In this document: piece by piece, positions 1 to 46,700 of the stretch | How the letters are laid out: each line of letters opens with the position of its first letter | Numbering within the stretch: the first letter of the stretch is position 1 | Assembly (NCBI RefSeq): GCF_002999335.1 | Contig: NW_020312107.1 | Location: forward strand, 1 to 64,000 | DNA: 64,000 nt | Origin: Cyclospora cayetanensis | Taxonomy: Eukaryota; Apicomplexa; Conoidasida; Eucoccidiorida; Eimeriidae | Reading direction: 5' to 3' | Position numbers and translations under genes: made by a program | The notes under the pieces: generated by a model | The model's input: only the letters and a program-made list of their open reading frames with translations | Database searches by the model: none | Told to the model about the DNA's origin: nothing

Positions 1-396
1 TTTGTATGTTTGTTTGTTTGTTTATGTATGTTTATGTGTATGTGTATGTGTATGTGTATGTATTTGTATGTGTATGTGTGTATATGTGTATGTATGTGTA
101 TTTGTTTATGTATGTGTATGTGTATGTATGTATGTGTATGTATATATGTGTGTGTATATATGTATGTATGTGTATGTATGTGTATGTGTATGTATGTATG
201 TATGTATGTATGTGTATGTGTATGTATGTGTATGTGTATGTGTATGTGTATGTATGTGTATGTGTATGTGTATGTGCATGTATGTGTATGTGTATGTATG
301 TATGTGTATGTATGTATGTGTATGTATATGTGTATGTATGTGTATGTATGTGTATGTGTATGTATGTATGTATGTATGTATGTGTATGTGTATGTA

Positions 397-433
<37 letters not shown>

Positions 434-592
434 GTATGTATATGTGTATGTATGTATGTGTATGTATGTATGTGTATGTATATGTAGGTATGTGTATGTG
501 TATGTGTATGTGTATGTATGTATGTGTGTGTATGTAGGTATGTGTATGTATGTATGTGTGTGTATGTAGGTATGTGTATGTATGTATATGTG
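1..592. repeat. TG-rich satellite, (TGTATG)n and variants
   Basis: Almost pure alternation of TGTATG, TGTG and TATG units fills the left edge. All three forward frames are open through it because the repeat has no stop on this strand, giving MYVYVCVC-type translations that are not genes. It is followed at about 600-645 by short AGCTAGC/GGCTGGCC palindromic sequence. It may be an intron or the upstream spacer of the large gene that follows. Confidence 0.95.
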
Positions 593-1022: not shown

Positions 1023-1285
1023 GTGTATGTATGTACATGTGTATGTATGTACATGTGTATGTATGTACATGTGTATGTTTGTACATGTATGTGTATATAT
1101 ATGTACATATGTATATGTGTATGTATGCATCTATATATATGTGTGCATCTATACATATGTGTGCATCTATACATATGTGTGCATCTATATATATGTGCAC
1201 CTATACATATGTGTGCATCTATACATATGTGTGCATCTATATATATGTGTGCATCTATACATGTACATGTATGTGTGTATATATC
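985..1285. repeat. Compound tandem repeat (TATGTATGTACATGTG, then CATCTATACATATGTGTG)
   Basis: Two successive arrays are visible. The first has a roughly 16-bp unit with ACATGTG cores (about 1015-1100). The second has an 18-bp unit of the form GTGCATCTATACATATGT (about 1128-1265). The second array stays open in several frames, giving CIYTYV-type peptides, which are rejected as genes. The array ends just before the first convincing exon, so it probably lies in an intron or the 5' flank of that gene. Confidence 0.9.
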
Positions 1286-1346
1286 TGATGTGCGCAGGGC
1301 CTGCCCTTCTTGCCACCCAGCGAAAGGACGGTCGGTCTCCTTTTAG

Positions 1347-2166
1347 GGTGATATCTTTGGATTTTGGATCGAGCGACGGCGAGAAAATAAGAATGGCTAC
1401 AAGTGTGGCGTTTACGAATGACAGCTCCACGTCGGTGTCTTCCCTAGGGCATGTCGAGTTCGAGATGAGCTATGAGGGAGTTCCCTTGGGCCGCATGCGT
1501 TCAGAGGTTCCCCTGCGGATGGCGCGAGGCAGCAACGTGTACACCTTTCAGGGGGAGTTGCGCCCTCTGCAACTTGCTCTCACGCAGACGGAGAGCACTC
1601 AGCAGACGGAGGAGGCGCAGCAGCACACGCAGATCTTCCTCGACACCTTGGGCTCTATGATGGCGAAGTCGCTCTCTGGACTGCCCGTCGTGATGGATGC
1701 TCGGGGAGTAGACTGCTCTGAACCCGTCTTCCTGCCCGCTGTGCTGGCATCTGCTTTCATCACTCCTGTTCAAGGGCTCTCAGTTGCGGCTCGCGACGGT
1801 GCAGCGAAAGAGGTCAGCGCTGGAATTCTCTCCGAGGCTCCCAACGCCGCTGCAAGGCCTAAAAGGGCCCCCCAACCCAGAGGCGACTCCCCTCTGACTG
1901 CAATGGTGGAAGCGCTTCGGCTCTCCGACGTGCGCATCGAAGAAGATCCAGAAGCAGAAGACTCCGTCCGCGTCGAGGCACTTCTCAAGGCCAGGATTGC
2001 AAACCCTCTTGGACCGAACTCCCCAGTCATCGTCGATCAGGTGCGACCAACAAGGCCTGAAGAGAGAGAAAGGAGAGAGGGAGAGAGAGAGAGAGAAGGG
2101 AGAGAAGGGAGAGACAGAGAGAGAGAGAAGGGAGAGAGGGAGAGACAGATATATATATATATATAT

Positions 2167-2206
<40 letters not shown>

Positions 2207-5097
2207 GTAGAGAGATATAAAGAGAGAGATGTATAAAGAGAGAGAGATATAAAGAGAGAGATATATAAAGAGAGAGATATAAAGAGACAGATAAAGAGAG
2301 AGATATATATAAAGAAAGAGAGATAAAGAGAGAGAGAGATAGATAAAGAGAGAGAGAGCGCTTTCGGTTTGCCGTCTGTCTCCACAGTATTATGAGAATC
2401 TCGTGCTCCTAAGGCCTCCTGCTTCCTCCCGTAGCTTGCTCGTGCAAGTTCTCTTTTTAGCCTTGTGCATCGCTCATCGGAGGGGATTATTGATAGGCCT
2501 TTTAAAATGTGTCTTGCGTGGGCAGCTGCATGCACCCCCAGTTTCTGCCTCTGCGCTCTCCCCCGAACAGTAGCTCTTCCCCAATCTGCGGAGCTGCTGC
2601 TTGCTGCGTTCTCTTGAGGGGCTTGCATGCGTTTCGCAGGGAGCTCCCTCCTTCCCTTTTTTTCTCACTGGCTTTGACGCCTTTTCTGCCCGTCTGCATG
2701 CTTTGTTCAGCTCACCTTCGAAGCCACAATGCATGTGGACTCCCCCGAGGGGCCTCGTATTGGAGTCATCACTGCGTCTATGGTTTCAGTGGCCCCTCCT
2801 CAGAGTGTCTCGGCAGATGCGCCTTGTATGGATGCTGACGACGAGGAGCCGCGAGACTCGGCTCTGGGGTTCCCCTTCTCTTCTCCGCAGACTGCATCCT
2901 CCGTCGGGGGCAGTGCTGCTGCTGCGTCTCCTGCTTCTGCTCCTCCCGTCGTTCGCTTGGTGGGAGGCCCCTCGGATGGAGGAGCTAGTATGGTGAAGCA
3001 CTTGGAAGTTTCGGGGGGATCGCGGAGACGACTCGCCGCAGCGCCAGAAGGCAAGGCACCGGGCCCTTCCTTGCGGACAGAGGCGTGGCTAGACACGTTT
3101 TTTGAGCTGCGTGGGTCGTTGCGTCTCGCTGAGGACGGGAAGGCTTTTGTGGAGCTCGTGAGGCGACTTGCGACAGAGGCTGAGGTGCCTCTCGTGTTCA
3201 CGGATAGCCAGTTGGATGTGGAGGCGCAGTTCGCGCTGGGGAGGCTGTTCCTGCCGAAGATGCAGCTGGATCACGAGCTTCCCATGGCAGGCATGGGAGT
3301 CGTGGAGGCTGTCGAGGTCTCTTCCTTCTCGCTGTTGGGGGAGAAGGCTGGCGGCTGGCTGTTTGCGTCTACCGCAGTGCTTCCTGCGCGCGTTCCCGCC
3401 ACCGTCGCTTTAGGCGCTGTCTCCATGTACCTCTCCTTCGAGGGTCTGCCTCTCGGCTTCCTAGCCACTCAGAGCCTCGTCGTTCGGGAAGGCCTCAACG
3501 ATGTGTTTGTGGTGGGGTTGTTGAGGCCCGAGGGGCTCAGGAGTGAGGTCCTAGAGACACTCTCGAAGTTTTTCTCCGCTGCAGTCGCGTCGCCGTCGCG
3601 CGCTTCTTCCGGCAGACCCCACATGCAGCTCACTCTGTCGACAGAGCAACAAGGCGCAGCCATGGAGATGCTGCGAACCTACATGACGCAGCCCCCTCCC
3701 GCTTCCCCTTCCTCCTTCTCCTCCTCCGCTGCGTCTCCCGAGGCTCGCGGCGCCTCGACGGGAGCGCCCGCCAAGTGGCTGAGGGCAGCCATGGAGGGCC
3801 TGACGCTGCAGCTGCCCGTCCCTTCGCTGGGGGATGTCTCTTCCCGCGTGCAAGGCGTCGATATGGAGGCTTTGCATATCAACTGGCCCCTCGTCTCAGA
3901 CTATACAGTCCCCCTGATGGGTTTGTCGCTCTTGAGACTCTCGAACCCCCTAGGACCGCGCGTGCCGATGCACCTGCGACACCTCTCTCTGGAAGCGAAG
4001 GTGGCAGCTCTGGTCGAAGCAGAGGCCCCCTTGGTGCCCACCCCGGGGGGGCCCCTCGTGCCGCTGACGGGGGCGCCATCTGCGGCTCCCAAGATCCTCG
4101 TGCCGCTGGGAGCGATGCGCGCCGAATTGACGGACCTGACGTGCAAAGCCGTCGGCAGCGGCGCGTCGAACGCGCTTCAGGAGGGGCACCCCCTCCTGGG
4201 ACCCATAGGCGATCTTCCAGCCGTCACTGAAGACGCAGGAATGATCGAGATCAGAGCTCCGCTGCAGACTGCCATCGAGATCACGGAAGGCTCCCTTGGC
4301 CCACACAACTTTGGCATGTTTGCTGCTGCATTTGTGGAGCAACAAACAGTGCGCCTCGAGTTCATGGGCACGGCTGACTGCCTCGTCGAGACTCCTTTCG
4401 GAGTTGTCAAAGTCTCGCAAGTGGAGCTCCACAATGCTATGGACATCCCTGGCTTAGGCGGTCTTCACAATATCACCTACGCGGATTTCAAAGTCTTGGG
4501 GATTGGAGATGTTGAGGCGCACCTCTCCAGAGCCACGGCATCCGAAGAGGAAGAAGAAGAGGCTCCAGAAGAGCCACAGCAAAACGCTGCCTCAGACGCG
4601 ACAGCCTCAACAGTACAGGGTATCCTCATGGACCTTACAGTGCTCGTTCAGAGCTCAGCAGACACCTCCGCGCAACTCGGGGAAACAGAGCTGCTCCTCT
4701 CCTTCATGGGTTCCCCTATAGGCCGCATGCGGACAGCCAAGGCTGCCTTCGAAAAAGGCGCAAATCGCTTGAGACTTCAAGGTGTGTGTGTGTGTGTGCT
4801 GCTCAACGCCAGTGCTGACCACGTACAGATACATAGGTGTGGGTATATGTGGGTGTGTGCCAACGCACGGCGACTTTCCTTCCTTCCCCTCCCCCCTCTC
4901 CTTCCCTCCCCCCTCTCCTTCCCTCCCCCCGTCTGGTGCTGTGGAGGAGGCTACATGCAAAGGGGGATGCTCGTGGTAGTTCTACTGCTGGAATTCGCAG
5001 CACATCGTTTCGGGTAAAATACTTTTAAGACAGCTTTGGCATGCGCTCAGTCGGTCTGTTTTTGTGTGGCCCTCTCACTATATATATATATATACAC

Positions 5098-5138
<41 letters not shown>

Positions 5139-8100
5139 TTGATGTGTGTCTGTGTGTGATATTTTTTTAGGCGCGCTGCTGCTGACCAAGGGAAGTGAGG
5201 CGAGTCTGTCGCAGATGTTTTCAGCTGTGGTAGCTGAGATGCCTGTGGCTCTTGAAGTATCCATCGTGAAGGTGTTCTTGCCGTCGGGGGATGAAGCGCC
5301 TCTGTGGCTATCGGAGGGTTTGAGCCTTGTGCGTTTGAGGCCCTTAGTGCCTCCTCTGTCGGCGTTGTTCCCAGGACTGGATCCGCGGCATTTGCTGCGG
5401 GAGTTGCAGGTTGGCACGGTGTCTGTACACCTCGATGCAGCGCAGGCGGATCGCTTCACAATTACGGCGAACGTGCAGGCTACGGCGATATGCCCCTTCG
5501 GCGCTGTGGTTCCTCTTGCAGTTCGGGGAGCAGCTTTCGAGTTGCAGCTGCTGGGGGGAGATGGGCTGGAGATCGGATCAGTCACATCGACAACGCCTGC
5601 TGCGGCGGAAGCAGCGGAGGCACCCGAGATCACAACGCAGCTGGAGGTGCAGCCGGGAGGGGAGGAGACGCTCTTGGTGATTAGCATGAGGACGGAGGCA
5701 GTCATCGAGCTCGCAGGGGGGGGTGCTCCTCTTGGACGGTGGATTCGAGAGGCTCTGCATGGATCAGGCAGTCTTGAGCCATTTTTGGCACGAGGCTCTG
5801 CAGCAGTGGTGTTGGACGTTGGAGGCTTCTCGCAGCTCCTTGTTCGAGGACTGCAAATCGACAGTTCCTTCTCCTTCGGATCCGAGGCTTCCGCCGATGC
5901 GTCCTCTGTTATGGTGGCTGCCGATACACCCGATGCGGCCGTGGGTGTATCGACAGCCGCAGCTGCTGCGGAAGCGAGAGGCGCAGCGGCACCCTATGGA
6001 GGCTCAGCGCTCCTGCCGCAGGTCGATTTTCTGCGTATTTTAGGCCCAGTTTCTTCGGAGGGGGGGAAGAAAGGAGGCCTTGCATTTGAAGGGGAGGCGT
6101 CGTTCTCGATGCCCGTTCCTGTGCGCATGCTTTTGCCCCCCCTGCACCTGAAGGCGAGGTACGGAAGCACACTCATTGCGGAGCTAGAAACGGAGTCGAT
6201 AAGCCTCCAGCCCAGGCCCAGTAGAACCGCTGCGCGCTTTTCGGGAACGCTGCTCCAACAGACTACCTCCGAAGGTCTTCAAGATCTCAATGCCTTAGCT
6301 GCGGAGACTGTGAAGGGCCTTATCCTCGGCGAAGCTGCCAGCGAAATTGCAGGCGGGGGAGCCGCTTCTCCCCAGCAAAAGCAGCTAGGCCCCGTGCTGC
6401 AGATAGAGGCAACGGTGCAGTCTTCGCAGTCTTCAGCTTCTGCGCCACGGTGGTTGCTGGACGCCATTCAAGGAACCATTCTGGAAGCTCCTGTCATGGG
6501 TTCGCAGCTGCTGTCTCCGACGACAGTCCGAGAAGTGCAGCTGCGAGACACGGAGATCGACGCAACAGGATCTGGCGTCTCGGGGTCTCTCTCGGTGACT
6601 TCTAGAGTCTCTCTCGTCTTGGAGGCTTTCTTTGGGGAGGGAGCTCCTCTCGTGGTCGAGGGGCTGAGAGTGGAAGCTGCAATTTTGGATCCGAAGAGTG
6701 GTGTGGCATTAGCAGTCGTGAAGAGCGTGCACTCTATGGCGGGAGCAGCGCGTGTGAAGGACGGCGATGTGGCTCTGGATCCCCCGGCGACGATAAGGGC
6801 TTTGCCGAACGGGCTGCTTTCTGCAGATCTCTCCATGAAGCTGCTGATGGACGTTTTAGACGAGGAAGCCTTTGCAGACTTTGCCGTGACTGCCATCCAG
6901 GGAACGGCGGCGACACAGATCCTGCTGGAGGGCACGGTGTCGATAAATTTGCAAACTCCTCTGGGCTTGCTTTCCTTGGAGGGGCTGCATGTGCGGCAGA
7001 GTGTGCCTATAGACGGCCTCAGTGCAACTGTGGGAGCCTTGACTGACGACAGCCTGCGGGTGCTCTCCTTCTCCGTAGAAGACGTGACGCTAGATGGCAG
7101 TGGGGGGCGAGACAGCTTGTCTTTTGTTGTGGATGTCATTGTGGGAAAAAATGCATCGCCAGGAGGATCTGACGACATGCAGATACGCACTGGGGCGCTC
7201 AGCTTCTCCCTCGTGGATGCCACTGACGGCCGCATTGTTGGGGAGGGGTCTGTGCCTGCGGCAGTTCTCGGAGGGGGTGACAGTCATCCTATGCGCATCT
7301 CTGGCATGCTTTATGCTCCGAGCGAGGATCGGCGGCGTGGAAAATCTCGCCTGGCGACGTTCATGAGCAAGGCCATCAACGGGGAGCCTCTTGGGGTGTA
7401 CGTACACTGGAGAGACGACCCTTCAAATCCGAGACCCTCTTGGATGGGCCGAGTCGTGGATAGCCTGCACCTCAATCCAAGTATTGCAGGGTATGCGTCT
7501 TAACCCGATGCAGTTGCATCGCGTAGAGCCTTAGTGTCAGGGGTAAAGGCAGAGAGGGTGGCAAAGAAATTGCACGAAGTCTTAAAAGAAAGCAGCGGAT
7601 GGGTAGCTCCAGTGTGGCTGCTGTTGCGTGTGCTGGGATACTTTTGACTCTCGGGTGTTGCGAAGAGGGGACATAAGTTGTTCGGCACAAAGCGTTGCTA
7701 GTTGGAGATTGGGGGGATGTAGCTCATCAGGAGGATGTCAAAAATAGGGTGTGTCGTGGTTTGCTGTGTAATTTGCTGTGTAGTTTGCTGTATAATTTGC
7801 TGTGTAATTTGCTGTGTAGTGTGCTGTATAGTTTGCTATGTAGTTTGCTATGTAGTTTGCTGTGTAGTTTGCTGTGTAGTTTGCTGTATAGTTTGCTATG
7901 TAGTTTGCTGTGTAGTTTGCTGTGCAGTTTGCTGTGCAGTTTGCTGTGTAGTTTGCTGTGTAGTGTGCTATGTATTGTGCTATGTAGTTTGCTGTGCAGT
8001 TTGCTGTGTAGTTTGCTGTGCAGTTTGCTGCGTAGTGTGACGTAGTGTTCTAAGTAGGTTGCTGTATTTTTTGCTGTGTCGCTTGCAGCTGTTGTTGGTT

Positions 8101-11100
8101 TTTGGAGGTTGCGTGTTTTGGCGTGTGTAATGTGGAGTCTCTGCTGGGGCGAATGGATGCGATGGGTTGCGCAGGCTTGAAACGTCTTTGAGTTTGTTGG
8201 AGAGTTTAGGATTTAGGGGGCTGAGGATAAACACGGAGACACCTGATGCGGTTGGGGTGTCTGCGCTCGTGGACGTGACGTTGAGGAGTCCATTGGGTTC
8301 TCAAGTGCCTTTGCATTTGGATAAGGTGTCGGGGATTGTCGAGCTTTTTGGTTTGGAAGGAGAGGGTTCCCCGATGGCGGCTTTGGCGATGGAATCGCGC
8401 AGCCCTTTGGCACAGGTTCAGGAAGGGGATGTGTTGCATGTGACGCTACAGCTGGATCAGACTCGAGATTCTCTGCGGTTATCGGACGAGGGTCGTGCCT
8501 TTGCAGACTTTGTGTCGCATCAAATAAACGTTGGACCCTCGCTGCTCATGTATAAGGCTCGCGTTTCGGCTGTTGTGCAGTCTCCCTTTGGCATCCTTGC
8601 AGTCTCCGATTTCGAGGTGAAGGGTCACAGCAGTTTGCTGGAGGGAGGTTCTGTGGATGCGAATGGCAGTGCTCTGTCTGATATCGAGTTTACCGTCGAC
8701 GGGATTGAGTTCGAGCCTCCTCCGGATGGCAGGAAAGCCTTGGGTTTTTCTGTCAGCGTGGAGCTCCGCATTCCATTGGATTTGAGCATGCATCTTGGTC
8801 CAGTCGCCTTCCAGCTGCTCTTTGATGCGACTGCTGCTGACCTTGTTGGAGACGCGACGCAGGAAGGAGAAGATCCTGCGACGTCGCAGTCTCTTCGAGA
8901 GGAGTTGTTGTTGTCGCCAGGCGTGGTCTCCTTGGGAGTCTTAGAGGTTCCTGAGTTGAAGCTGCAGGGCGGGGAAGCGCGTCTGACGGCTCGTGGGTAT
9001 ATACAGCCTGCGCAGGAGGATCTTCCCTACGTCTCGGCGTTTATTTCTCGCTTGCTGAGCAGCGCATCTCCGGACGTGGTGCTGAAGGGGCTGAGTGCTT
9101 CTCTTCCTGGGGGGCAGCCCGCTCCTGAATGGCTGCAGTCTGCCGTGCGAGGGATCATTGTGTCTGCGCCTTTGCCTCCCGTGAGCTCCTTGGTAGCTTC
9201 GACTTTCTCCGACTTGCGGCTTGAAAACATGAGGCTCAAGGCGCTTCCTGCAGGAGAAGGCGAAAGCGGGGTTCAGCTGGGAGCCACCATCGAGACTACC
9301 GTCAAGAATCCGCTGGGGGAAGGTTCTCCGATCAATATCAAGCGCATCGGTGTGGACATACAGCTGTTCGAAACGGAGCAGTCGTCTGGAGAGGCAGAGG
9401 AGGAGGGGGAGCAACAGCAGCAGGAGCAACCGCAGCAGGAGCAGCAGCAGCAGCAAGAGATGCTTGGAGAGGAAAACGGGGGGGGTTCTCCAGCGCGGCG
9501 TCTGCAGGAGAGGCCTTTGACAACAAGTTCTTCTGGGGAAGCCTTCGCTCTCGCCTCGAGACGTCTGATTGGACGCTTGGTGGTGCAAGAGAAGGCTGTG
9601 CAGCAGCGGGGGTCTGTAGTCGCCATTGAAGTGTCTGAGACGCTTGCGTTCACGGATAGCGGAGAGGCCTTCTCCTCACTAGCCCTTGAAATGATGCAGC
9701 ACACAACTGCGATTCGTGTGGGGGTTCTAGGCACTGCGTCGGTGCAGCTGGAGTCGATCATTGGCGAGCTGCACCTTCACGGAGTGCCGCTGCACTCCGT
9801 GGTGTCTATACAGGGCCTAGGCCTCTTCCAGGCTGACACTCTCAGAGCGCTTGCGAAGTCAGCGCTCGAGAACCTCCGCATCTTCGATCTGCCGCCCAGC
9901 ACTGCGCGAGCGGGTGGAACGGAGGACGTGCTTGTGGCTAGCAGCAGCAGTTGGAGCAGGAGCAGCAGTGACATTCCTTTCGGCAGTAGCGTGGGCGCAG
10001 GAGCACTGACTTCCCCGCGGCTCCCCAGAGCGTTAGCCTTGGAAACAGTGGTGCAAATGCCAGCCTCGAAGGTGGCAGTAGATCTGAGCAGCCTGGTGTT
10101 CACAGTTGGATTTGAAGGCGAGGCGCTAGCTGCAGTCGTGGTGCCTTCCATGCAGCTGAAGGGGGGCGGGGGGGACGGCGAGTTGGTTGGGCTCACGGGG
10201 GTTGTTAAACCGACGAGCAACGCCTCTTTTTCGCGCCTGGCTTCGAGCTTTTTCAAGGGGAGCAGCTACGCAGTGCAGATCGTGGGAGCTCCAGAGGCGT
10301 TTGAAGCCTCCGCGAGCTCAACGCACGGACTGGCACTGACGTTCTCAGGCATGAGGAGCACTGCCATGCCTCCGCTGTGGGTTCGAAGGGTTCTCGCGGG
10401 AGTCTCCTTCGAGGTTCCCGTGGCGCGTGCTGTGGAGGGGGGCCCCTCTCAGGCGCAGAACCTCATGAGAGAAGTTCAGGTGCTAGGCGTGGATGTCGAT
10501 ATGTCTGGCTCAAGGAATCCGTTCGTGGAAGTCGACTTCGTGGCGTCATACACGTTCCCTCCTCAGTTCAACGTCAGACACAAGGTATGAGGGAGAGACA
10601 GCGGGAAGAGGGGGGGGGAAGGAGAGCTCGCTCTGTATTCTGAGGAGGAGGGAGGTTCGATGGAGGGGTTCGGACTGTGCAGCCTCGCGTAGTAGACGCA
10701 TGACGAAGAGCGTGGTGTGGCTGCTGTAGTCTTGAAGGAAGCAGTTGGGGAGACGTAGTGGCGAGTCGGCAGCACAGGAGGAGGGAGAGGGGGGTAGGGG
10801 CAGGGGCTTTGCGATTTTTGCTTTTCCCCCAGATTTCAACTGGCTCGGAGGGTGAACTCGATGATTTTTTAGAGGAAGGGGGGTAGAGGAGAGGGAAGCT
10901 TGCTGCAGCGGTGTCGGTGTATGAATTGTTGTAGAAATGCGCGTGCGTGTGGTTTAAGCCAGTGGTGTCGAGAGGGGTCGCGTTCTCGTAAAAAGGTGCA
11001 AGACTGGCGAAATGTAGCGTCTTTTTCGTGGTTTTTCTGCCCTCCGCATGCAGGTGCAGTCCATGGAGGGAGAGCTGCTGCTGCATACCCCTGGATCGAC

Positions 11101-11835
11101 AGAACCTGTCGCTCAGTTGGTGGTAAAAGACTTGGTAGTGCTTGGGCAGGAGCCCTCTGCGGCAGACTCGCGTCTTCACGTGGAGTTGAGACCTACGGAG
11201 CTTGTGGTGTTTTCTGGTAGAGAGAAGACTTTCTCGCAGCTCGTGCAGGATACAGTCAACTCTTCAGATAGCCTCTCTGTTGATGTAATGGGAGACATAC
11301 GTGTCAGTGTCGAGACTGCTGTCGGCTTGCTCACCGTTGCCATGCCAGTGCAAGTCACGCAGACGATTCAAGGTACGCCTTGGTGCTTTGCTCCCAACTG
11401 GATAGGATACGATGGATTTAGATAGAATACGATGGATTTAGATAGAATAGGATTTGGGGGGAAGGCATCTGAATCATCTAATTGCTTCCTTTTTTGTCTT
11501 TTTGCCTCCCTTGCCTCCTTCTCTTTCTCCTCCACCGTCCCTCGCCCTCCGTGCCCTCCAGTCTGTCTTTACACTGCAGCAGCAGCAGACTGCTGGAGGT
11601 GTATGGCCTCTGCAGCCTGCTGGGCATTAGAGTGAATTTGTGTATTTAGTGGGGTACCCTGTTCGCCACGGCGTGTATGTATGTGTATGTGTATATGTGT
11701 ATGTGTATATGTGTATGTGTATATGTGTATGTATGTATATGTGTATGTACATATGTGTATGTATGTATATGTATGTATGTGAATGTGTATGTATATAATA
11801 TATATATATATATATATATGTATATACATATATAC

Positions 11836-11905
<70 letters not shown>

Positions 11906-14147
11906 CATCTTCTCCTGTGTATATGTGTGTTTGTATCTACATATATATATATATATATATTTGTTTGTTTGTGGTGTTTGTACACTTTCAGGTCTAGGGG
12001 GCCTTTCGGGGTCAAGCGTGTCTTCCTTCTTCGAGCTGTCGGAAATGACGGTTGTTGGAGCAGACACTGAATTTCTGGATGCCATGGCGAAGCTGCGGCT
12101 GCAGATGCCGGGGGACGATTGCATCTTGGGAGTCAACTTGGGCCCTATCATCCTCGACGTTGATCTGCCCATTCCTGCAGACGAGGTGTCTCTCCTGGAG
12201 GATCTGGATGAGGAGTTCAGGAAGCACAACGTAGTCAAGTCAGACAGTCTCGGGCCGCTTGTTACCACTGGCCTTGTGAAGCTGCCTCGACTGATGATCC
12301 CCTCCCCTGCCAAACGGCGCAAACAGCTGCAGCAGATGAAGGAACAGGGTCTAACAGGCGAACTCCCCGCAGACACAGTTGCAGCTTTCCTCTTTCCCCC
12401 CGTCAAAATTGAGGGTCTTGAACTGAGAATGGGCACTCCGCAGCTCATGTCCAACTATCTCAATGGTGTTCCTACTACGCTGGTTGTGAAGAGCAACGCC
12501 AGCACCACAAAAAACGAGCTCCTTATTCCTTTTTTCGACACTTTTCGAGTAGAAACTGTTATTCAAGGCACTGATAGGGCCTTCATCAAAGAGGTCCTGA
12601 TAAGCGTCAAGGTAGGTCGGTGGACCTATCGCGCCATGCCACGTCGTCTTGCTGCAAAATATGCGTGTACATATGTGAATATGTGTACATGCGCATGTGT
12701 ATGTACATGTATGTGTACATGTGCATGCATGTGTTTGTGTTTGTGGGTTTTGTGTGCGTTTGCCCTTGATAAGCCTCTTTTTGGAGCGTTTTTTCTCACC
12801 ATGGAGAGGGGCCTTTTTAGGACGCAGGAGGCGTCTGTCTGTCTGTGAGGGGGGAGAGGCGGATGAGCAGTCGAGGGATGTTCTTCATAGAGTGTATCTT
12901 CGACCGTCATAGCGTGTGCATGTTGCGTCTATTTTCTGTGTGGCTGCAGCTCCGCAATTTCCAGCCTGCCTTTGAGGCCATAGCGGTCTTTGAGAATCCC
13001 ACGGGCGCGACGGTGAAATTCAAGTTTGCTAAACTGGAGACGTTCTATAATGGGAGGTGTGTGAAGCCTGTCGCGAGCAGATGTGGCTGCCTCAGCGGAG
13101 TTGCATCTGAGTCGGAGGGGTGGGGGGCGAGAGACAGAGACAGGGAAGGGGGCTTGTTGCAAGAGGACGAGAGTGTAGCAAGGTGGCTTTCAAAAAAACA
13201 AAAGTGCTAGTTGCTATATATATGTATATGTATATGTATATTGAGAGAGAGAGACTGAGACGTTTGTGTGTGGGGGAAGCACCTGCCTCCAGGCAGGCAG
13301 ATGGTGTCTTCTTTCATGTGCCCCTGAATAGCTGTCCAGTTGAGAATTTCGATGGGCAGAGGAGGGGGAGGAAGGGGAGAGGATGCATGTCGCTCCCCAT
13401 ATTTTAATTTGGCAGAAAGCGGAGGAGGGGTGTTGGGGAGGGGGCAGAAGGGGGAATTTGTGTCTTGGTAGGGATCGACGCGACGACGGTTTGGGACTGC
13501 TGAACTTTTCTTGCAGGGGGTTTGTGTGTATTTGCTGCATGCGCCTGTCTCGCATGGTGGTGGTTGTGTCTGTACAGCTCGTTGGGTCCTATGGTGATCG
13601 ACAAGCGCGCGCATCCAGACATCATTGAACCTAACAAGATCAGCAAATCTTCCCCAGTCCCAGTCCAGCCGCAGCTTAAGGGTGGCACCTTCGCTCTTGT
13701 CCACAATATTCTCAAGAGGTTGGCAACTAACAGCACAGAGAAGCCGACTGTTCAGGTGAGAAGGCGCTCCTGAAATCCCTCTCTTGAGGGTGTGCGCTTC
13801 TCCACGTTTAGGGTCTGTTGTCTCTCATGTATTCTGCCCGCACCCCTGCAGTCAGTCTCTCTTTTGCCGCCGCCTTCGCCAGCCGCTTCGCGCGGGGAAG
13901 TCTGCTGCCGCTCTCCTCTCGACCATCTCGTAGCTCAGGAAAGAAAGGAGGGAGACAAGTGTCGGGGGGGCAGGGAGGGGGAATCTTGCTGACGGCATGA
14001 GACCTCCCTCCGATGGTTCTGGGATTTCTGCTGGGTGTGCCGTGCATGCAGGCCCGAGGCGAAGTGCACATAGAAATAGGGGATTTTGCTTGTCGCTTAG
14101 ATGTAGACATAAAGAACATTCCCTTGACCATTCCCCGCTTACGGTAG
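1347..14147 (+). CDS. Giant modular protein, LEA-2/DUF3712-like tandem modules (5' end probably missing)
   Basis: Nine exons join with matching phases: 1347-2040, 2711-4781, 5171-7490, 8175-10584, 11054-11372, 11992-12611, 12950-13056, 13578-13755, 14052-14147. They give 2,937 aa and end at TAG 14145. The first exon follows a good pyrimidine tract but enters in phase 2, so upstream exons are expected. Repeated motifs recur along the chain. One is W-x(3)-[AV]-x-[EQR]-G followed by a Pro-containing strand, as in [18 protein letters not shown] (nt ~9123), with copies at ~3765, ~6447 and ~10372. The second is NPLGPxxP (nt ~2001, ~3940; variants ~8287, ~9305, ~12995). The third is a TPxGLLxxxxLxV strand ending in IxGLG. 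NPxGxxxP followed by alternating hydrophobics resembles LEA-2/WHy and fungal DUF3712 domains, but that is inference. No signal peptide or membrane segment is visible in the part present. Function is unknown. Confidence 0.7.
2050..2365. repeat. Intronic GAGA / (AT)n / AAAGAGAG polypurine repeat
   Basis: This lies in the first visible intron (2041-2710) of the giant gene. A GA-rich polypurine run is followed by (AT)n at about 2149-2203, then AAAGAGAGAGATATA repeats. The flanking exons join in phase 0 across it, which supports intronic status. Confidence 0.9.
4784..5145. repeat. Intron 2 microsatellites (GT)n, CCCTCTCCTT, (AT)n
   Basis: The intron at 4782-5170 begins with GTGTGTGTG at the donor. 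It contains CCTTCCCTCCCCCC pyrimidine repeats at about 4878-4931 and (AT)n at about 5080-5140, and ends with ATATTTTTTTAG. The phase 1 join across it restores the reading [10 protein letters not shown]. Confidence 0.85.
7755..8040 (+). repeat. 12-bp intronic tandem repeat, consensus GTTTGCTGTGTA
   Basis: About 24 tandem copies of a 12-bp unit with TGTGTA/TGTGCA/TATGTA variants lie in the intron at 7491-8174 of the giant gene. Two forward frames are open through the array, giving VCCVVCC and LLCSLLCS peptides. The flanking exons join exactly in phase 2 (IAG-LETSLS) when the array is spliced out, so it is not coding. Confidence 0.92.
11670..11965. repeat. Intronic (TGTATG)n plus long (AT)n
   Basis: This lies in the intron 11373-11991 of the giant gene. 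GTATGTGTATATGT repeats are followed by about 110 bp of nearly pure AT from about 11795 to 11900, and a second (AT)n at 11939-11960. Reverse-frame ORFs rich in IYIYIY arise from it and are artefacts. Confidence 0.92.
12660..12750. repeat. Short GTACATGTG repeat in an intron
   Basis: Degenerate ACATATGTG/ACATGCGCATGTGTATGTACATG units lie in the intron 12612-12949 of the giant gene. They are related in sequence to the array near 1015-1100. Confidence 0.7.
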
Positions 14148-17433: not shown

Positions 17434-17550
17434 GGACGCGCAGTCCGCTGCAGCCGCAGCGTGCACCGACCCCGCAAACTGCCATTGCTGCAGCTTCTTC
17501 GGCTGCAAATAGCGGCGCCTAGCGGCTGTCGGTGTAGCCGCTGCGACCAG

Positions 17551-25356
<7,806 letters not shown>

Positions 25357-25929: not shown

Positions 25930-28070
25930 TCAGCCGAGCTCAAGACATGCAAGGTGACCATCATCCCCCCCCGCAAGAATAGCCGACGTAGTGGCTATTC
26001 CGTCGCCGCCTTCAGACGGCATTTTCTCGACCGTTCTCACAGTCTGCACAGCTCCCCGACTGCTGCACCCGTACCCCCAGCATGCAGCTGCCCCCGAAGG
26101 CACCCGCTGGCGGGAAAGGGGGCCCCCTCCCTGTACACCCCGCTGGCCAGCCATCATGTCGAGCAGGTAGAGGGCCCCGTCTGCTGCACCTGCACAAACG
26201 AGGCCCGCGCAGTCATCCAGGGGGGCCCCACAGAGGAGGCCCCCCCTCCCTGCATTGACGGATGCCACCGGGCGGCAGCAGTCCGAAGGGGCCCCCCCTC
26301 CCGAAGGGGGGCCCCTGCGCCCCCCGTTCTTCGCTGCCTTGACGCACCGAAGGTCCCACAGCTTGCAGCACCCATCGGCTCCCAGAGTGCAGAGCGTGGA
26401 AGCAGCCAGAGCACCGCCTCCCCCTCCGAGGGGCAGGAGAGTGTTGATCGAGGCAGCATGCGCTTGCGCCGAAGACACGGGGGAGGGGAGACACCGCAGA
26501 TCGAACACGCATAGCCGTCCATCTGCCCTCCCGCCGGAAGCCAGAAGCGGAACAAAGCCTCCCCCGCAGCCGCTGATCGGCGCTTCTTCCCTTCTCGCCG
26601 CGAGGGGCAGGAGCAGCTGAAGATCCCCAACGGCTCCCCTGTGGGCGGAGGGAGTCTGCGCAACGATTTCCCCCGCGTTGAGATCCCACGCAGTGATCGC
26701 CCCCTTCTTGCTGCCAGCAGCGGCGAAGGCGTTCAGCCACACAACCTGGAGCAACGGGGAGAGGGCCCCTAGAGCACCCGGCTCCCCCACATCCACTGCG
26801 GGAAGCTCGAGCAGCTGCCTTCCCCTGACGAGACTCCACAGACGAAGCGTGCCATCGTAGCCGCAAGAGGCACCACGCATGCCGCGAACAAGCACCTGGC
26901 TTACACCTGCAAGATGCCCAGGAGCAAGTTCCTTGCAGCAGCGCGCAGGGTTTGTGCTCGCTTTGCAGACTGCCGTTGCTTCGGGAAGGCAAGCGGGGTA
27001 GGGGTTCTTCAAGGCAGCAGCAGCAGCAGCAGTAGCAGCAGCAGGTGTGGTCGGCTGCTCCTGGGAGGAGGCTGCGCGAGTGAGAAAAAGTGCTTTCCTC
27101 GAGGCGACTCCCCGGGAGGAGACAGCGCAAGGGCTCGTGCGAGCGCTTGCCTTCTGCTGCCACAAACAAACCTTCCCGTCCATGCCTCCCGAAAGCAACT
27201 GACCGTCCTCGCAATACGCACACGACGTCACCCAGTCAGAGTGACCACCCGAGGCACCGTACAGCTCACACACAAGCGACCCCTCCGCTTCCCCCCCCGG
27301 AAGAGCAAACACACGGATCCCCCCGTCTGCGCTGCCCGTAGCGCAGTACTTTTCTGAGAGATACACAGACACACAGCAGACAAAAAACAGCACACAAAAA
27401 TACAGCATACAAAAACCGGGAACAAAAAAACAGCAGACAAAAAAACAGCAGACAAAAACCGGGAACAAAAAAACAGCAGACAAAAAAACAGCATACAAAA
27501 AAACAGCATACAACACACACAAGCACGCAAAAAAGACGAATCCTCAAGAGCCAGAGGAGGATGCAAAAAGCTTAAAAACAGCAAAAAAGGCGCTGTACCC
27601 CCAGCCCTCAAAGACAGCTAGCTACGGGAGAATCCCTCTTCTTCTTCTCCCCGCCTCAAGAAAAGCGCCTCGCGAAGCACTGGGGAGAGGAGGGAGGAGG
27701 GTAGGAGGAAAAAAGATCACGAGAGAAGAAGGCACAAAGCGTCAGGACGGGTGGAGCGGGGGTGGGGGGAAGAAGCCTCACTTGAGGGGTGTACATCCAC
27801 GCAGAGGATCGACCTGTCATGCCCGTTGGGGAGAACGGCTGCAGCAGTTGGACCTGTCTGTACAGCTTGAACATTCGCCACTGCGCAGAGAGTGCGACAG
27901 GCAGGGACGAAGTCTGAAGGCGTCTCTCCCGGAGCTGCTGTGGGTTGGTCAGAAGGTCTGTGGGGAGTTGGCAAGCCAGGCTGTCGGCGCTGCTGCGTCG
28001 ACTTTGTGCTCGAGAGGGCAGCAGCAGCTGAGGCTTCTAGACAACGGGGTGTACCGGGGGGTGGCTGCAT
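25930..28070 (-). CDS. WD40 repeat protein
   Basis: Two minus-strand exons, 28070-27782 and 27353-25930, join in phase 1 across a 428-bp intron and give 570 aa. The join falls inside the first blade and reads GHDRSILCVDVHPS-KKYCATGSADG, a normal WD40 blade, which supports the splice. Further blades follow: GHSDWVTSCAY..MDGKVCLW, GASCGYDGTLRLWSL, GAITAWDL, ADGRLCVFDLR, GADGCCKLWDLR, AADGALYLLDM and GGDDGHLACLEL. That gives seven or eight blades, enough for a closed propeller acting as a protein-interaction scaffold. I do not recognise an orthologue group. The N-terminal ~70 residues are Pro/Ala/Ser-rich. The start ATG at 28070 is the first in its frame, but an AATGCAG acceptor-like sequence overlaps it, so an upstream exon is possible. 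Confidence 0.8.
27362..27525. repeat. Intronic AACAGCAGACAAAAA / ACCGGGAACAAAAA tandem repeat
   Basis: The intron of the WD40 gene contains repeated AACAGCAGACAAAA, AACAGCATACAAAA and ACCGGGAACAAAA units. The minus strand is open through it (VFLSAVFLFPVF-type peptide), but the phase-consistent splice removes it. Confidence 0.85.
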
Positions 28071-39985: not shown

Positions 39986-40742
39986 ATGCATAGCAAAAGA
40001 GCTAAATCCGAGTGGTGCATTGTTCGCACTGAATGGTCTGAAGCTAAGTCGTTCACGTGCCACTCGGCGCTCAGAGCTAACGGGTGTCTTAGAAATTCAG
40101 CTGGCGTATTTTGGTTCAGCCATGGCGTCCTGATCGCATCCTCTGTAGGGTGTGAGGCGAAGGAACATCGGGGCTTTGGAAACGAGCAAGCTACACCAAG
40201 CAGTCTTCTAACCGAAGCTCGCTGGCGCCTGAATTGGAGTGAAATGCCCCTACAAGACTGAAGCTCCGGCAATTCTGTCACATTTTCCCGAGAGAATTCC
40301 GCCAGGCTCTCTGGGATGCTGGCACGGCCGCGGCCCCACACCAGAAACCCGCAGGGCCTCGTGGTCACTGCAGCAGGAGCTGTACGTACAGCCGGGACTT
40401 CTAGCCTTTCCAGTGTTTCCCCTTGTTCGCTGAGCTGCGTAGGCAGCACTCTCGGTGTTTTTAGGGGCCCTTTTGCGCAAAGGCCCCCTCAAGTTGCCAG
40501 CATGCCCTTTGTCGGCGGCTTTGAGGTCTCTGACGTCGTCATTGCCCATGACGCATGAATAGTGCATGACACATACCTAAAAGGCCACCCTGGAGGCCCC
40601 TTTTGCCCCGGGTAAGGGTTCCAGGATTTGTGCATCCCCTCTCGTCTCCTTTCTGGGAGCTGGGTGCCTTGAGCACGTGGCTCTGAGCCACGTGGGCCCT
40701 CACAATCGATTGGAAGTCTCGAGGAAAGCGCTCTCAGCAGTC
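39986..40742. other. Upstream region of the URB1-like gene
   Basis: No gene is recognised. ORFs here are short. The 5' UTR or a small 5' exon of the next gene may lie at its right end, since the frame of the next gene is open back to 40677 without an ATG before 40743. Confidence 0.5.
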
Positions 40743-43700
40743 ATGTCAGAGGCAGCGGTACTTGCGAAGCTGCTTGATGCAGCCGCCCGAGGGGCTCAGG
40801 CAGGCATTAGGGGTGGAGATTCTCCCCAAACCGCAATACGGGAGCTTTTGGCATGGCTGGATCCACTTCTCCCCGCGCTTTGCCACCCCGTTGCCCCTCT
40901 AGTGTCTCAGACTCGACTGGGGAAGAAGGCAGCGCTGCTGCGGGAGCAGCGGCAGCGGCAGCTGCTGCTGCAGGAGCAGCAGGATCTGCCAAAGCTGCGG
41001 CAGCAGCTTTGGCAGTTGCTGCAGGCATACGCATCCGCCTCCCCAGGCTGTATTGAGCTCCTGCAGCTTGTGGATGCAAGCACTGCGGCACTCTTGCGAC
41101 TGCTGGAAGAGGGCACCAAGGTCGCCCAGCGGGGCCTCCCCGAAGGAGCTAGTCCTGCTGCTGCTGCCCGTAAGAAGCTCCAGCAGCAGCAGCACATGCA
41201 ACGGGATGCAGAGACGGCTGCAGCCGAGGCACTAGCGCAAGCAGCACAAGCAGCAGCACTCCTTGCCTGTGCTGTGGTCAAAGAGGAGAGGCTGGACGCC
41301 GTTCCGTGTGCTGCTGCGACTCGACATGGACTGGCTGCAGCCCTCACGACTCCCACGAGACTCCTGTCTCTGGGGATGTTGATGCGTTCCCCTCCTCCTG
41401 CGTCCGCCCCCCCCACAGCGCAGCAGCAGCACGCTGTACTACAGCTGTGTCTCTGCCGTTTGGTTTCCTCTGCTGCTGCCTGCACGCCTGCAGCAGCCTG
41501 GCGAGTTGCGTGTGCAGTGCAGGGGACTGGAACGGCAGCAGCTGCAGCATCTTGCCAAGGAACCTCCGGTGGGGGGGGAGGCGAGCGAGAACCTGCGCAG
41601 CATCATCCGCTGAACACAGCGATGCATGCACTGTGCGAGGGGCCTTCAAGGCACCTGCTGGCAAGGCGGAGAAGAAGAAACAACAGCCAGCGAGCTGAGG
41701 GTACCCCAGATAGCGACCAGCGTCCACCTCCTCCTCCAGCTCAGGGATGCCTGTGTAGCTGCACCACTTGCGTCAAGGAGACAGCCGCGCAACCTGTGCA
41801 GGCAGGAGTGGCATCGGCTGGCGAGACTCAAGCGGCAGACGAAAGGGTTGCACAGACTTACCGTAAGACCAGCTGGAACCGTGCGTGGGGGTCTTTCTCA
41901 GTGCGCTGCTGCTGCCTTGCCTGCCGTGAGGAAATGGATCCTCTTGGCGTGAGCGCTCGTATCGGAGCGCAGCGTGAAGCAAGGCGAGGCGCACGCGATG
42001 GCGACTCAGCGAAGATCACACGGCCGCTGCTGGCGGAGGCTGCTGCTGCAGCAGCTGCTGCGACTGCGCATGTTCGCCTCGCCGTAAGTACACTGAGAGC
42101 TCGCGCTGCTCGGGAGGTCATAGGGGGATGCGGGCTTGTGCCCATTCGGTATGCTCTTCGGCAGGAGGCCTTGCGTCTGCTTCTGTTGCTTTTGCTGCAT
42201 TCGGATCTCATCGTTAGCGAGACTTTGCTGCAGCCACGGCGGCATCTCCAGCAGCTGCAGTCTCACGCAGCAGCGCGTGGGAGCCACAGGGATTCTGCGA
42301 ACAGCAGCAGCAGACTCGGAGATGATGTGACGTTGCTGCGTTCCGCCGTTCGTGGGCTGCCGCTGGATAGGGAGCTCGACGCCTTGTGTTTCTTAGCGGG
42401 GTTGTCAGAAGCGTTTTTGGCTGCAAGAGCAGCAGGCCGCTTCAGACTCTCTGAGAGCACAGCGAGACATCTTTGCTTCACCAACGGACCTGGAGGCTTT
42501 GCACTCCCTGGCCTGCTTCACGCCTTCACTGCGAGGGAAGATTTGAATCATTTGTTGCAGCCTCTCTTGTGGCGTCGTCCCCCCGAGGGCTCAGAGGCAG
42601 CTGCAGCCGTTTATGCAGGAGAAAGCCACCAGCAGGAGGTGCCTTCTTCCCGTGAAGCTGGGGGGAGCCAGTCTGGCGAGCGTTTCGCCTTCTTCAGCTC
42701 GTCCTGGGTAGCGCAGCGCTTCCTCGCGTTTCTGCTGCTGTTGGCAGCTGCTCGCAGCCTCCTGCGCAAGGGGCTGTCTGCTGAGGATCGTGGGGCGATC
42801 ACTGAGTCGGTAGCTCCCAGGAAGGATGGCATGGAGCACGAGCGGCCGCTGCTCTCTCTGGCTCTGGCGATTCGTCCTCTACAACTGCCTCCGCAGCAGG
42901 ACCTCTTGTTGCAGCTTTTCAAGTCTCAGCCAGCCCTCTTGCCGCCTTTCTTGGCTAGTGCTACTGGACTGTTGTTGAGCCCTCGCCAGTCGTCTACCTT
43001 TGCCCTTTCGTGTCTCTTTCTCTGCCGCGTTCTAGAGGCCCCTTGGGTATTGCCCGTCCAGCAGCAGCAGCAAATCCTTGAGGCACGGCGCCAACGTCTC
43101 CATCATGAGCGACAGCCGCAACTGCAGCCACTAGCAACTGCAGACGTACTGCCGGAGCCCTCCCGCCTCTACAGCGCCGCAGGCAGGGGCCTTCTGGGAT
43201 TGGCGCTTTGCGAGCACGACTTGAAGTTTTCGACTTCGGAGGCACCACGAGCAGAGTTTCAAGTCGTCTGCTCACAGGAGGCGGAGCAGATTCCGTACTT
43301 CGAAGACCTCGAAGCCAGGAGACTGCAACATGCGCAGATGCAGCACAAACGCCAGGATGTAGAACTGAGCAGACGACGTATCATTGCTGTTGCAGGGGCA
43401 TACGTAGCCTCCCCTGCCCTGCTGTTGCGTCAGCACCTGTCTCAGTGTCTTCTGCAACCGGATGTTCGAACAGCCTTCTGCGGCGTTGCTCTTCTGCGGG
43501 CATGCTGCAAGGCCCTACGCTGCATGCATGGAGCCCTCAGCGCACACCCCGATTTGCAGCGGCTTCTCTTGGCTGAAGTAGGCCCTCGCCTCCCAGACGC
43601 GAAGACTCTAGTCAACTCCTTGCTGCGGCTGCTCCAACAAGAGAAGCATGCGGGTACGCAGCAGCTTAGCGGCTCGAAGAAAGGAGGACATGCTCAAGCA

Positions 43701-46700
43701 ACTCCCCCCGCAGCCGCTCACCAGGAAGAACTCTGGTTATCGGACGAGGCCCTATCCAGAGCTGCAGCAGCCTCTGCAGCTGCTGCTGCCAAGGAGAAGC
43801 AGAAACAAGAAGTGGAGCGTGCCCGGCGAGGCTCCGGAGAGGCCGACGACAGTGAAAATGATGAACTAGAGATTCATGTTGATGGCATTGAGGAGGCTAC
43901 CGCAGATGCAGAGTGTGAGGATTCGTGTAGTGAAGAGGAGGACTCCCCTGAAGCGGATTCAACGACTTTGTGTGCAGCCTCCCGTGGTGTAGTCGCGGAG
44001 CACCTTATGCAGCTTTTCGCACAGTTGACATCGCTTAGGACCAGTGCAGGGGCTCCCCATGCAGACGCCGGAGGGCATAGCAGTGTGGCTGCCAAAGATG
44101 GTGTCTCTTCGACCTTCTTTCTGTTGCTCCTGGGGTAAGCATGCACCATGGGGAAGCCCGTGCTCCGTCCATTCTGTGCTCATAAATTTTTCTAGGCTAG
44201 GTCGACGGGCTCTTGACGCCTAGAAGTCTAGAACTACCTCTGTCGGCTCGTTTAGTTGAGGCATCCTCGTGGCTGCGCCTCGGATGGGGGGTAGAGTCAA
44301 CTTTTTACTGGCCGCTGCTTGTAGAGGCAGGCGGTGGGGGTTCGCTAGTTCTCGCAGTGCCTGCATACAAATCAAGCCTCATAGGATGATCAGAGGCTGC
44401 GTGGCCGGTCGTCTGCATAACAGTGAATTGCCACCCCCTTTCGCTTTGTTTGGATTGCTTTTTTCGCAGGTGGATGGAAGTTGCGGAAGCCTATCAGGAG
44501 CTGATGACTCCATCGTTTCCTCTTGATTGGGGCAAGTTGCTCTGCACGTGGAAGCCCGTAGATTCCGAAGATCAAAGGAGCACTCTCTGCTGCAGGTCAC
44601 GAAACATTGCAAAGTCCATCATCCGTCTGGGGGTACAGGCACGGGGAGGAGTAGGAGCATGGGGGCGCGAGATAGCTGCAGGTGGTGCTGTGTCAAAGCA
44701 GCAGCAGCTGGTACTTCTCCACCTCTTGCTGCAGTGGCATCGGGATGCACAGGGAAGCCGTCAGTGTCTCCTGAGTCCATGCCAGAAGAATGGGAGCCCA
44801 GACAATGACACTTCGGCTGCAGTCATTTCTGACGAGCCTCTTCAGAACCTGCTAGGGTGCGTATATATATATATATATGTATATATATATGTATATTATA
44901 TTCGCCTGTCATAGCAACTTTGCCACACCTCCACGTGGCTGCCTGCACCAGTGCATGGGACGGCGATGTGGTTTTTCTCCCCCACGCATCCTACCTGGGA
45001 TAAAGGCAGGAATTTGCGACGTGAGAGATTCCTTGTAGACTCGCTCTGCAAAGCCGACTTGTGCTGGTCCGTAACTGTGTTATGGGATCGTTTCTGCAGG
45101 TTTATGCACACGAGCGGCCTCTTCAGCCTCGATCCTGCTGGGGCTTTCGGAGTGGATGAAGCTGCTGTGTGGCTCACGGCGTTGGAAGAATCTTCCTGCT
45201 TTCGTTGCAGCGCGCTCTACTTTGTGGGGGTGTTGCGCCTCGCTAGTGAGCGTCGGTTGGCTCTGTTGCCCTATGTTGTTGCGCCCTACACCCGTGAAGG
45301 CGGAGACGAGACTGCGGCGCAGGAAGAAGCAGCGTGGCTTCTCTCACCCTTTTCTGCAGCCCTTCTGGCTCACCTCTCTGTGACCCCTCGTTGCAACAAT
45401 GGGCGAGCGCTCTTTATCGATTTGCCGTCCTTCGGCGTGTCGGCCCCTGCAGAGAGTTGTTGGGGATGCGCCTTTAAGCACTCGGCGGAACTTTGCGCTG
45501 AGGCAGTCGTGCAGTGGGCAGTCAGCGGACTCATGAAGTGCTGCATCTTACGTCCTGCAATGCGGCATCCGCTTCTCACGTGGCTGCAACAGGAGGGCTC
45601 CTGGCGTGTTATCGGCTGTGCACTGAACATGCCGCGCGAGCAGAATGCGGAGGGGGGAACGCAAGCCGATTCTGCGGCGTTTGTGGAGGCAGCCCGCGCT
45701 GCTGCTGCTCAGCATCCCCAGAGCAAAGCGGTCAATCGGCTTCGCAAGCGGCTCTTGCGGTTTCTTGCGGTGCGGCGTGCAGAGTGTTCTGTTGACACCA
45801 ATAAAGTCGCTGCGCACTCAGCCCCACAGACGACCCTCGAGGAGCAGTTGGAGCATCTTGCGGGATTGCATCAGCTGGCAACGAACTCGGCACCTCTCCT
45901 GGCCCCTCTCCATGAGGTAGCACCCGAGACTCTGCTCTGGGGATGTGCTGCCCGCTTGCCTGGCGCTGCGTCTCCAGCAAGAGACCACGTGGCTCTCGCA
46001 GAGAGGACGAATTTGCTAGGGCTCCTGGGGGCATTTACGCGGAACCTCGAGGAGCTGCAGGAGCTAGGAGGCCTTAAAGATTCGCAGCTACCACACGGTA
46101 ACCTTCAAGGAACCGATGCGCTGACCAGCGGCAGGTTGCCTGCCGTTCTGCGGCAAGTGGAAGCTGTGAGCTGGCAGCTCAGAAACAAGGCTCTACGGGA
46201 ACGTCGTTGTGTCTCAGATGCCGGTCTAGGTGCAGACAACCCGTGTGCAGCTGTGATTGCCAGTGCGGGGAGACCTCTAGGGCGATTACTTCGCCAAGCC
46301 ACCACGGCGCTTCAGCGTCTTGCATTGACCGCCTCACTGCCTCAGTGCGCCGATCATGCGGAACCCCCTGCATCGCACAGCACGCGTGAAACGGCCTTCC
46401 GAAAAACAGCAGCCGACGACGAGGCCCTCTTGCACTGGGGAGAGATAGGGGCTACCTTGTGTTGCCACATTGCAAGCCTCTGTGAAACATTTTCTGCTGG
46501 AGGGATCCCCGACTGCTCCGTACCTTCGAAACTGCGGCTGCTTCGTCGTATCGTGATGTTTTTTGTAGCCCTCGCCGGTGTGCAAGATGCAGTTGAACGG
46601 AAAGGCCGCCCTTCAGTCAGCTTCGCGGGCTGCATGCAACGCCTAAGGCTCTGCCCAGTATTTGCTGACACGCGCTCGCAAGCCTTACCACAGGTATCTG

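Follow-up and report, generated by a model that had tools for sequence, protein, structure and literature searches.

A giant coccidian protein of alternating modules, very probably an enlarged Tag1-type LEA-2 protein

The left end of a 64,000-nucleotide stretch of the Cyclospora cayetanensis genome (positions 1 to 64,000 of contig NW_020312107.1, referred to below as the window) carries most of a giant gene, the product of which is, to judge from its family and architecture, very probably a greatly enlarged Tag1-type LEA-2 protein. At the level of sequence, the chain begins with a short N-terminal stretch followed by a single transmembrane segment and an initial LEA-2/DUF3712 domain; seven pairs of modules of two alternating classes (B–A, modules 2–15) and a C-terminal part make up the rest. 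An initial annotation of the window, made from the letters alone, had described a giant protein of repeated modules at this place. That observation was confirmed with corrections, and the interpretation attached to it is supported in part: the tandem modules and the kinship to LEA-2 and DUF3712 domains stand, but a lipid bridge at a membrane contact site is disfavored.

Five related proteins were found. P0001 is the NCBI model of the C. cayetanensis gene (1,942 residues), and P0002 (3,097 residues) is 52% identical to the Cyclospora chain over aligned columns. The remaining three, P0003 from Toxoplasma gondii (3,689 residues), P0004 from Hammondia hammondi (HHA_281440), and P0005 from Besnoitia besnoiti (BESB_030960), are each 31% identical to it over aligned columns, and P0004 is 89% identical to P0003. 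P0002–P0005, referred to here as the orthologues, are similar in length to the Cyclospora protein (3,097–4,043 residues) but diverged in sequence (31–52% identity), and those of the Sarcocystidae have longer N-termini.

Alternating modules and family membership

Repeats were sought by profile self-comparison, in which sliding windows of a five-protein alignment were compared with the alignment itself and matches of at least 40 columns with a probability of at least 50 were counted. With Cyclospora as master sequence, 182 off-diagonal matches were obtained versus 0, 0, and 0 in three permuted controls; with Toxoplasma as master there were 170, versus 0 in one permuted control. The self-alignment check proposed in the initial annotation thus revealed internal repeats, and the tandem modules it had postulated are supported. 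A filtered BLASTP self-search of the chain detected no repeat, and P0001 searched against the chain with filtering and composition correction switched off gave a sole off-diagonal match, pairing residues 842–1117 of P0001 with residues 276–529 of the chain at 26% identity. The repeats appear mostly too diverged for detection from a single sequence.

The chain was cut by eye into 18 segments, so that module borders are approximate. An all-against-all matrix of segment profiles separated two classes, A (odd-numbered modules 3–15) and B (even-numbered modules 2–14, with 10 weak). A modules 3, 5, 7, 9, 11, and 13 match one another at 84–98%, except for 7 versus 5 in one direction (8%), and module 15 joins the class through 11 and 13 (75–95%). 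Mutual matches among B modules 4, 6, 8, 12, and 14 lie at 52–97%, module 2 joining through 4 and 6 (94–95%). Profiles of A against B reach 0–2%, apart from 7 with 10 (17–19%). Segment 10 is weakly B (best match 38%), segment 1 reaches 24%, and segments 16–18 reach 12%. The count of about 15 modules includes module 1 by its Pfam match and module 10 by its position and tryptophan motif, and leaves out 16–18.

The three motifs on which the repeats had originally been recognized are mostly the visible marks of this alternation. All three exceed expectation in the 3,234-residue chain when compared with 1,000 residue shuffles, a comparison that is descriptive because the expressions were chosen after reading the chain. 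The tryptophan-led helix occurs six times (shuffle mean 0.16), once each in B4, 6, 8, 10, 12, and 14 and always at the module's end (6/6). Nine NPLG-like copies (shuffle mean 0.64) are distributed over A-module starts (five), later parts of A modules (three), and B6 (one). Strict NPLG and I.GLG occur three times each, the latter at the ends of A modules in all three cases. None of the 1,000 shuffles reached the observed number for any of these four expressions.

Family membership rests on Pfam matches evaluated against the curated cut-offs of 24.1 bits for DUF3712, 27 bits for Tag1_C, and 25.4 bits for LEA_2. DUF3712 is matched above cut-off in a window frame (37.3 bits, 4e-9; best stretch 3134–3427, exon 3) and, in a Pfam scan, on the exon that lies on a second contig, C118 (31.9 bits), as well as in P0002 (87.9 bits), P0003 (161.8 bits, 1.2e-47), P0004 (154.9 bits), and P0005 (146.9 bits, 4.6e-43). 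Tag1_C likewise passes in P0002 (41 bits), P0003 (43.7 bits, 3.8e-11), P0004 (48 bits), and P0005 (36 bits, 9.6e-9). In the window's own frames its matches stay below cut-off (12.2, 15.2, and 19.5 bits; 18.4 in the genome search), with sub-threshold stretches at 6847–7011 (exon 4) and 8419–8628 (exon 5). LEA_2 is above cut-off in three of the four orthologues, including Toxoplasma (2.7e-11) and the whole Besnoitia protein (32.5 bits, 1.2e-7), and below it in P0002 (18.5 bits). The precomputed Pfam domains of the relatives agree: DUF3712 and Tag1_C, plus LEA_2 in the three Sarcocystidae.

Across the proteins, the best stretches of Tag1_C fall in A9, A13, and A15, those of DUF3712 over the junction of modules 1 and 2, and those of LEA_2 in module 1, B14 (Besnoitia), and B6 (P0002, below cut-off). 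When 10 of the 18 Toxoplasma segments, some of them trimmed, were scanned alone against Pfam, four had no match and only module 1 passed a cut-off; LEA_2 scored below cut-off in two of the six Toxoplasma B segments so scanned, and the other four had no match. The LEA_2 search of the C. cayetanensis genome returned no match although this gene is present, so that search was not sensitive enough. Neither A1 nor Toxoplasma module 1 matched any sequence in the PDB (0 matches each).

Structure prediction covered two of the nine window exons (exons 3 and 5), and the models, of low overall confidence, are rich in predicted beta strands. In VIA-align, LEA14, the lumenal domain of TMEM106B, and Af_0446 occupied the first three ranks for both models, over A modules 5, 11, and 13. 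Kinship to LEA-2 and DUF3712, as initially suggested, is thus upheld by both the Pfam scores and these ranks. In its own order, Foldseek placed other beta-sandwich proteins above LEA-2 folds for both models. On balance, the A modules are predicted, with moderate confidence, to adopt the LEA-2 beta-sandwich fold.

LEA14-type proteins (1xo8 and 1yyc) and Af_0446 (3but) share the fold of the modeled modules in VIA-align but, unlike the Cyclospora protein, are short chains of 125–174 residues that form no array. The lumenal domain of TMEM106B, from the human lysosome, was the first or second VIA-align match of both models, the aligned regions being 7% and 12% identical. It comprises one LEA-2 domain as against an array in Cyclospora; TMEM106B is described as a lysosomal membrane protein with a single such domain in the accessible text of PMC10340176. 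A search of the C. cayetanensis genome for the TMEM106 family found no match, and control genomes were equally silent, so nothing follows from it.

The same order of modules is found in the orthologues compared. In BLASTP, each of the 18 Cyclospora segments had its best match in the same-numbered Toxoplasma segment. Trees were built for 14 of the 18 segments from four proteins (Cyclospora, P0002, Toxoplasma, and Besnoitia), leaving out P0001 and P0004, which is close to P0003; at all 14 A and B positions the orthologues group together, with support of 0.849–1.0. The C-terminal part is also conserved in the orthologues found. These comparisons suggest that the array was complete before the split of Eimeriidae and Sarcocystidae and has retained the same arrangement of modules in these proteins since. 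The named genera with a family member are Cyclospora, Toxoplasma, Hammondia, and Besnoitia. The relatives were retrieved by shared words, with only the 7,984 and 7,978 candidates richest in shared words scored in two of the searches, and the result says nothing on Plasmodium or Cryptosporidium; one family-widening search returned P0002 alone though P0003 was in its query.

A gene divided between two contigs

The window starts at base 1 of its contig, C72, and the gene is incomplete within it, running off the contig end. Splicing of the window exons at GT/AG junctions with consistent phase gives 2,937 residues in one frame with a single terminal stop, which reproduces the length originally reported as a minimum (at least 2,937 residues). 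The originally assigned start at 1347 is not an exon start: the coding frame reaches further back, to an acceptor (cag/G) at 1298, and tblastn against P0002 matched window positions 1252–1416, extending the frame upstream. The N-terminus had to be corrected as well, because exon 1, with the start codon and the transmembrane segment, lies outside the window on contig C118. A DUF3712 search of the C. cayetanensis genome pointed to two places: this gene, at 24.8 bits barely above the cut-off, and the minus strand at the end of C118, at 35.3 bits. Within its sensitivity, that search matched no further gene.

Exon 1 (C118, L005 1324..484, minus strand), assigned from this genome match, holds the ATG, the transmembrane segment, and most of module 1. 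Beyond its end at L005 484, a TATG microsatellite runs off C118, and the window itself opens at its contig end with a TATG/TGTA-type microsatellite (1..590) that probably lies inside the intron splitting the gene. Because continuity with P0002, splice phase, and the TATG-type microsatellites at both contig ends agree, C118 is inferred to adjoin C72 and to carry part of the same gene; most likely the assembly split the gene within a repeat-rich intron. The joined chain comprises 3,234 residues with 0 internal stops, and its N-terminus is similar by eye to that of P0002.

The nine window exons all lie on the plus strand and were defined by splicing together with the evidence given for each. Exon 2 (1298..2040; tblastn) contains the end of module 1, B module 2, and the start of A module 3. 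Exon 3 (2711..4781; Pfam and model) supplies the rest of A3, B4, A5, and part of B6, followed in exon 4 (5171..7490; Pfam) by the rest of B6, A7, B8, A9, and part of B10. The rest of B10, A11, B12, A13, B14, and the start of A15 are encoded by exon 5 (8175..10584; Pfam and model), and most of A15, including its IQGLG end, by exon 6 (11054..11372; motif). Exon 7 (11992..12611; profile matrix) adds the last residues of module 15 and segments 16 and 17, which match neither A nor B. The C-terminal segment 18 starts in exon 8 (12950..13056) and continues through exon 9 (13578..13755), with the C-terminus and the stop codon (14145–14147) in exon 10 (14052..14147).

Compared with this chain, P0001 shows five identical blocks totaling 1,853 residues, and the remaining differences are as expected of different exon models, in agreement with C. 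cayetanensis (Eimeriidae) as the source of the window. Despite its "transmembrane" name, P0001 lacks the first 1,233 residues of the chain, the transmembrane segment included; it starts mid-gene and, close to its C-terminus, seems to include intron sequence. Its length of only 1,942 residues and its several different junctions are what could be expected if separate small genes had been wrongly joined here. Such an artifact is extremely improbable, as P0002 covers 100% and the Toxoplasma protein 99% of the 2,937-residue query, the best Toxoplasma matches of all 18 segments follow the same order, and splice phases are consistent throughout.

Predicted topology and possible function

Each of the four proteins tested (Cyclospora, P0002, P0003, and P0005) has one strong hydrophobic segment close to its N-terminus. 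In that order, the flanking charges are +5, +3, +8, and +6 on the N-side and 0, +3, +1, and 0 on the C-side; the N-flank is thus more positive in three of the four and equal to the C-flank in P0002. From these charges the N-terminus is predicted to be cytosolic in three proteins, P0002 being undecided, and the positive N-side of a single transmembrane segment therefore makes it likely that the array is lumenal. The putative lumenal part in Cyclospora contains 8 cysteines in 3,072 residues and 9 sequons, and one sequon column is common to all five proteins. No Chorein_N match was detected in P0002–P0005 and the C118 exon (Pfam E up to 5) or in eight window frames (E up to 1); in place of Chorein_N, the N-terminus carries the transmembrane segment and DUF3712.

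In the model considered likeliest, the LEA-2 array is lumenal and sits on a lysosome-like vacuole, where it would bind or sense lipid. A location on such a vacuole is about evenly balanced. A role in lipid sensing or transfer, proposed because lipid transfer has been predicted for TMEM106B, Vac7, and Tag1 (Levine 2022, as reported by citing papers), falls just short of even, and the statement as a whole is held more tentatively still. According to this model, the N-terminus would be cytosolic and the array of about 3,070 residues would project into the acidic lumen of the vacuole (in Toxoplasma, the plant-like vacuolar compartment, PLVAC). Each LEA-2 unit would present membrane lipid with a hydrophobic face; together, the aligned units would pick up or sense lipid from intravacuolar material, such as autophagic or endocytosed membrane; and the array would hand the lipid along, or report it, to the limiting membrane, with the cytosolic tail relaying the signal. 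More speculatively, and rather improbably, the seven B–A pairs could form one continuous lipid-binding rod, several tens of nanometers long, in the lumen of the digestive vacuole, serving as a bridge or conveyor by which lipid moves between the limiting membrane and membranes of ingested or autophagic origin. Such a conveyor would be built of LEA-2 units, not of the repeating beta-groove (RBG) fold of VPS13/ATG2, and would form a lumenal class of its own among bridge-like lipid transfer proteins.

Other readings of the array have to be weighed against this model. A stiff beta-sandwich spacer without a lipid role, structural or adhesive and acting through its length and its contacts with proteins, in the lumen or at a surface (of the parasite or the oocyst/sporocyst interior), would explain why both Foldseek lists are headed by non-LEA proteins and why beta-sandwich proteins, among them integrin, complement, and transglutaminase, account for a large share of the structural matches; a conserved module order is expected of a ruler. 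Yet LEA-2 folds hold ranks one to three in each VIA-align list, and no Pfam domain other than DUF3712, Tag1_C, and LEA_2 is matched above cut-off; surface adhesins, moreover, are expected to have more cysteines than the 8 counted here, which leaves this reading unlikely but worth carrying. The name shared with LEA proteins and the resistant oocysts of coccidia might also suggest a stress or desiccation protein. That candidate was rejected as very unlikely: the Toxoplasma LEA proteins studied in this role belong to the disordered class 6 and lie in another locus cluster, according to the accessible part of PMC10128015, whereas the Cyclospora protein is membrane-anchored, 3,234 residues long, and predicted to be beta-rich in the two exons modeled.

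The initial annotation's idea, a long groove or tube perhaps serving lipid transfer or membrane contact, corresponds to a cytosolic lipid bridge at the contact of two organelles. Like VPS13/ATG2, the Cyclospora protein is a long repeated array, and apicomplexan VPS13 is also very large (13,455 residues in Toxoplasma; PMC7613979, in its accessible part); the P0002 membrane segment, flanked by the same charge on either side, would allow a cytosolic array. The flank charges of the other three proteins, however, predict a lumenal array, the nearest VIA-align matches are LEA-2 folds, and Chorein_N gave no Pfam match. A Chorein/RBG bridge was rejected for want of such a match, and a bridge of this cytosolic kind is quite improbable.

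The model of a lumenal LEA-2 array invites comparison with budding yeast Tag1 (presumably YLR173W), in which an N-terminal membrane anchor precedes the LEA-2 domains and the N-terminus is cytosolic. Yeast Tag1 is a vacuolar protein that is reportedly linked with Atg1–Atg13 in ending autophagy. The orthologues resemble it in combining DUF3712 with Tag1_C (above cut-off in all four) and, in three, LEA_2, a likeness drawn through Pfam. They differ in scale, with about 15 alternating modules against the three LEA-2 domains reported for Tag1 (and one each for Vac7 and TMEM106B; PMC10340176, accessible text). In many protists, above all the parasitic species, no ATG13 or ATG17 could be identified (PMC8161075, accessible part), and a Tag1-like link to Atg1–Atg13 may for that reason not exist in coccidia. 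An ATG13 search of the C. cayetanensis genome gave no match, the controls being equally silent, and nothing follows from it. An ATG8-family exon pair is present in that genome (G000, C50 27436–28032). Since known autophagy initiators or regulators are described as absent from Toxoplasma (PMC11588310, accessible part), a Tag1-type protein in four coccidian genera offers a concrete autophagy candidate.

More generally, the lipid role of Tag1, Vac7, and TMEM106B has been predicted but is difficult to examine in a single domain. A conserved array of about 15 modules brings the idea within reach of a test, for domains that carry lipid should, when arrayed, carry it over a distance.

Prior description and other features of the window

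The initial annotation knew of no described coccidian protein with this architecture. Relatives with the same Pfam domains are in the databases, under the names "transmembrane protein" or "hypothetical protein," but no paper on them was found. Literature searches by the T. gondii (inferred from the Hammondia number), Hammondia, and Besnoitia locus identifiers and on DUF3712 found no paper, supplements and most subscription papers lying outside their scope; those pairing Toxoplasma with LEA-2, Tag1, or TMEM106B had none on such a protein among the matches listed. Tables from proteome studies or screens may nevertheless list the gene. The Tag1/LEA-2 kind is thus known, and what is new as far as searched is the arrangement of about 15 modules in A/B alternation, conserved in the coccidia found. 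A family name is now available for proteins filed as "transmembrane" or "hypothetical."

Elsewhere in the window, a row of long open frames on the plus strand (40581–53266) is possibly one large Urb1/Npa1-type ribosome-biogenesis gene, judging from weak matches below cut-off to Npa1 in its first frame (E 0.0009) and to NopRA1 in its last (E 0.0036); the two middle frames have no match. A plus-strand frame at 17434–19860 with a long glutamine run has a weak DDHD match (E 0.006, below cut-off) that, by eye, seems to overlap this run and may reflect low complexity. On the minus strand, 25933–27543 holds the frame of a WD40-repeat protein (Pfam WD40, 3.1e-15).
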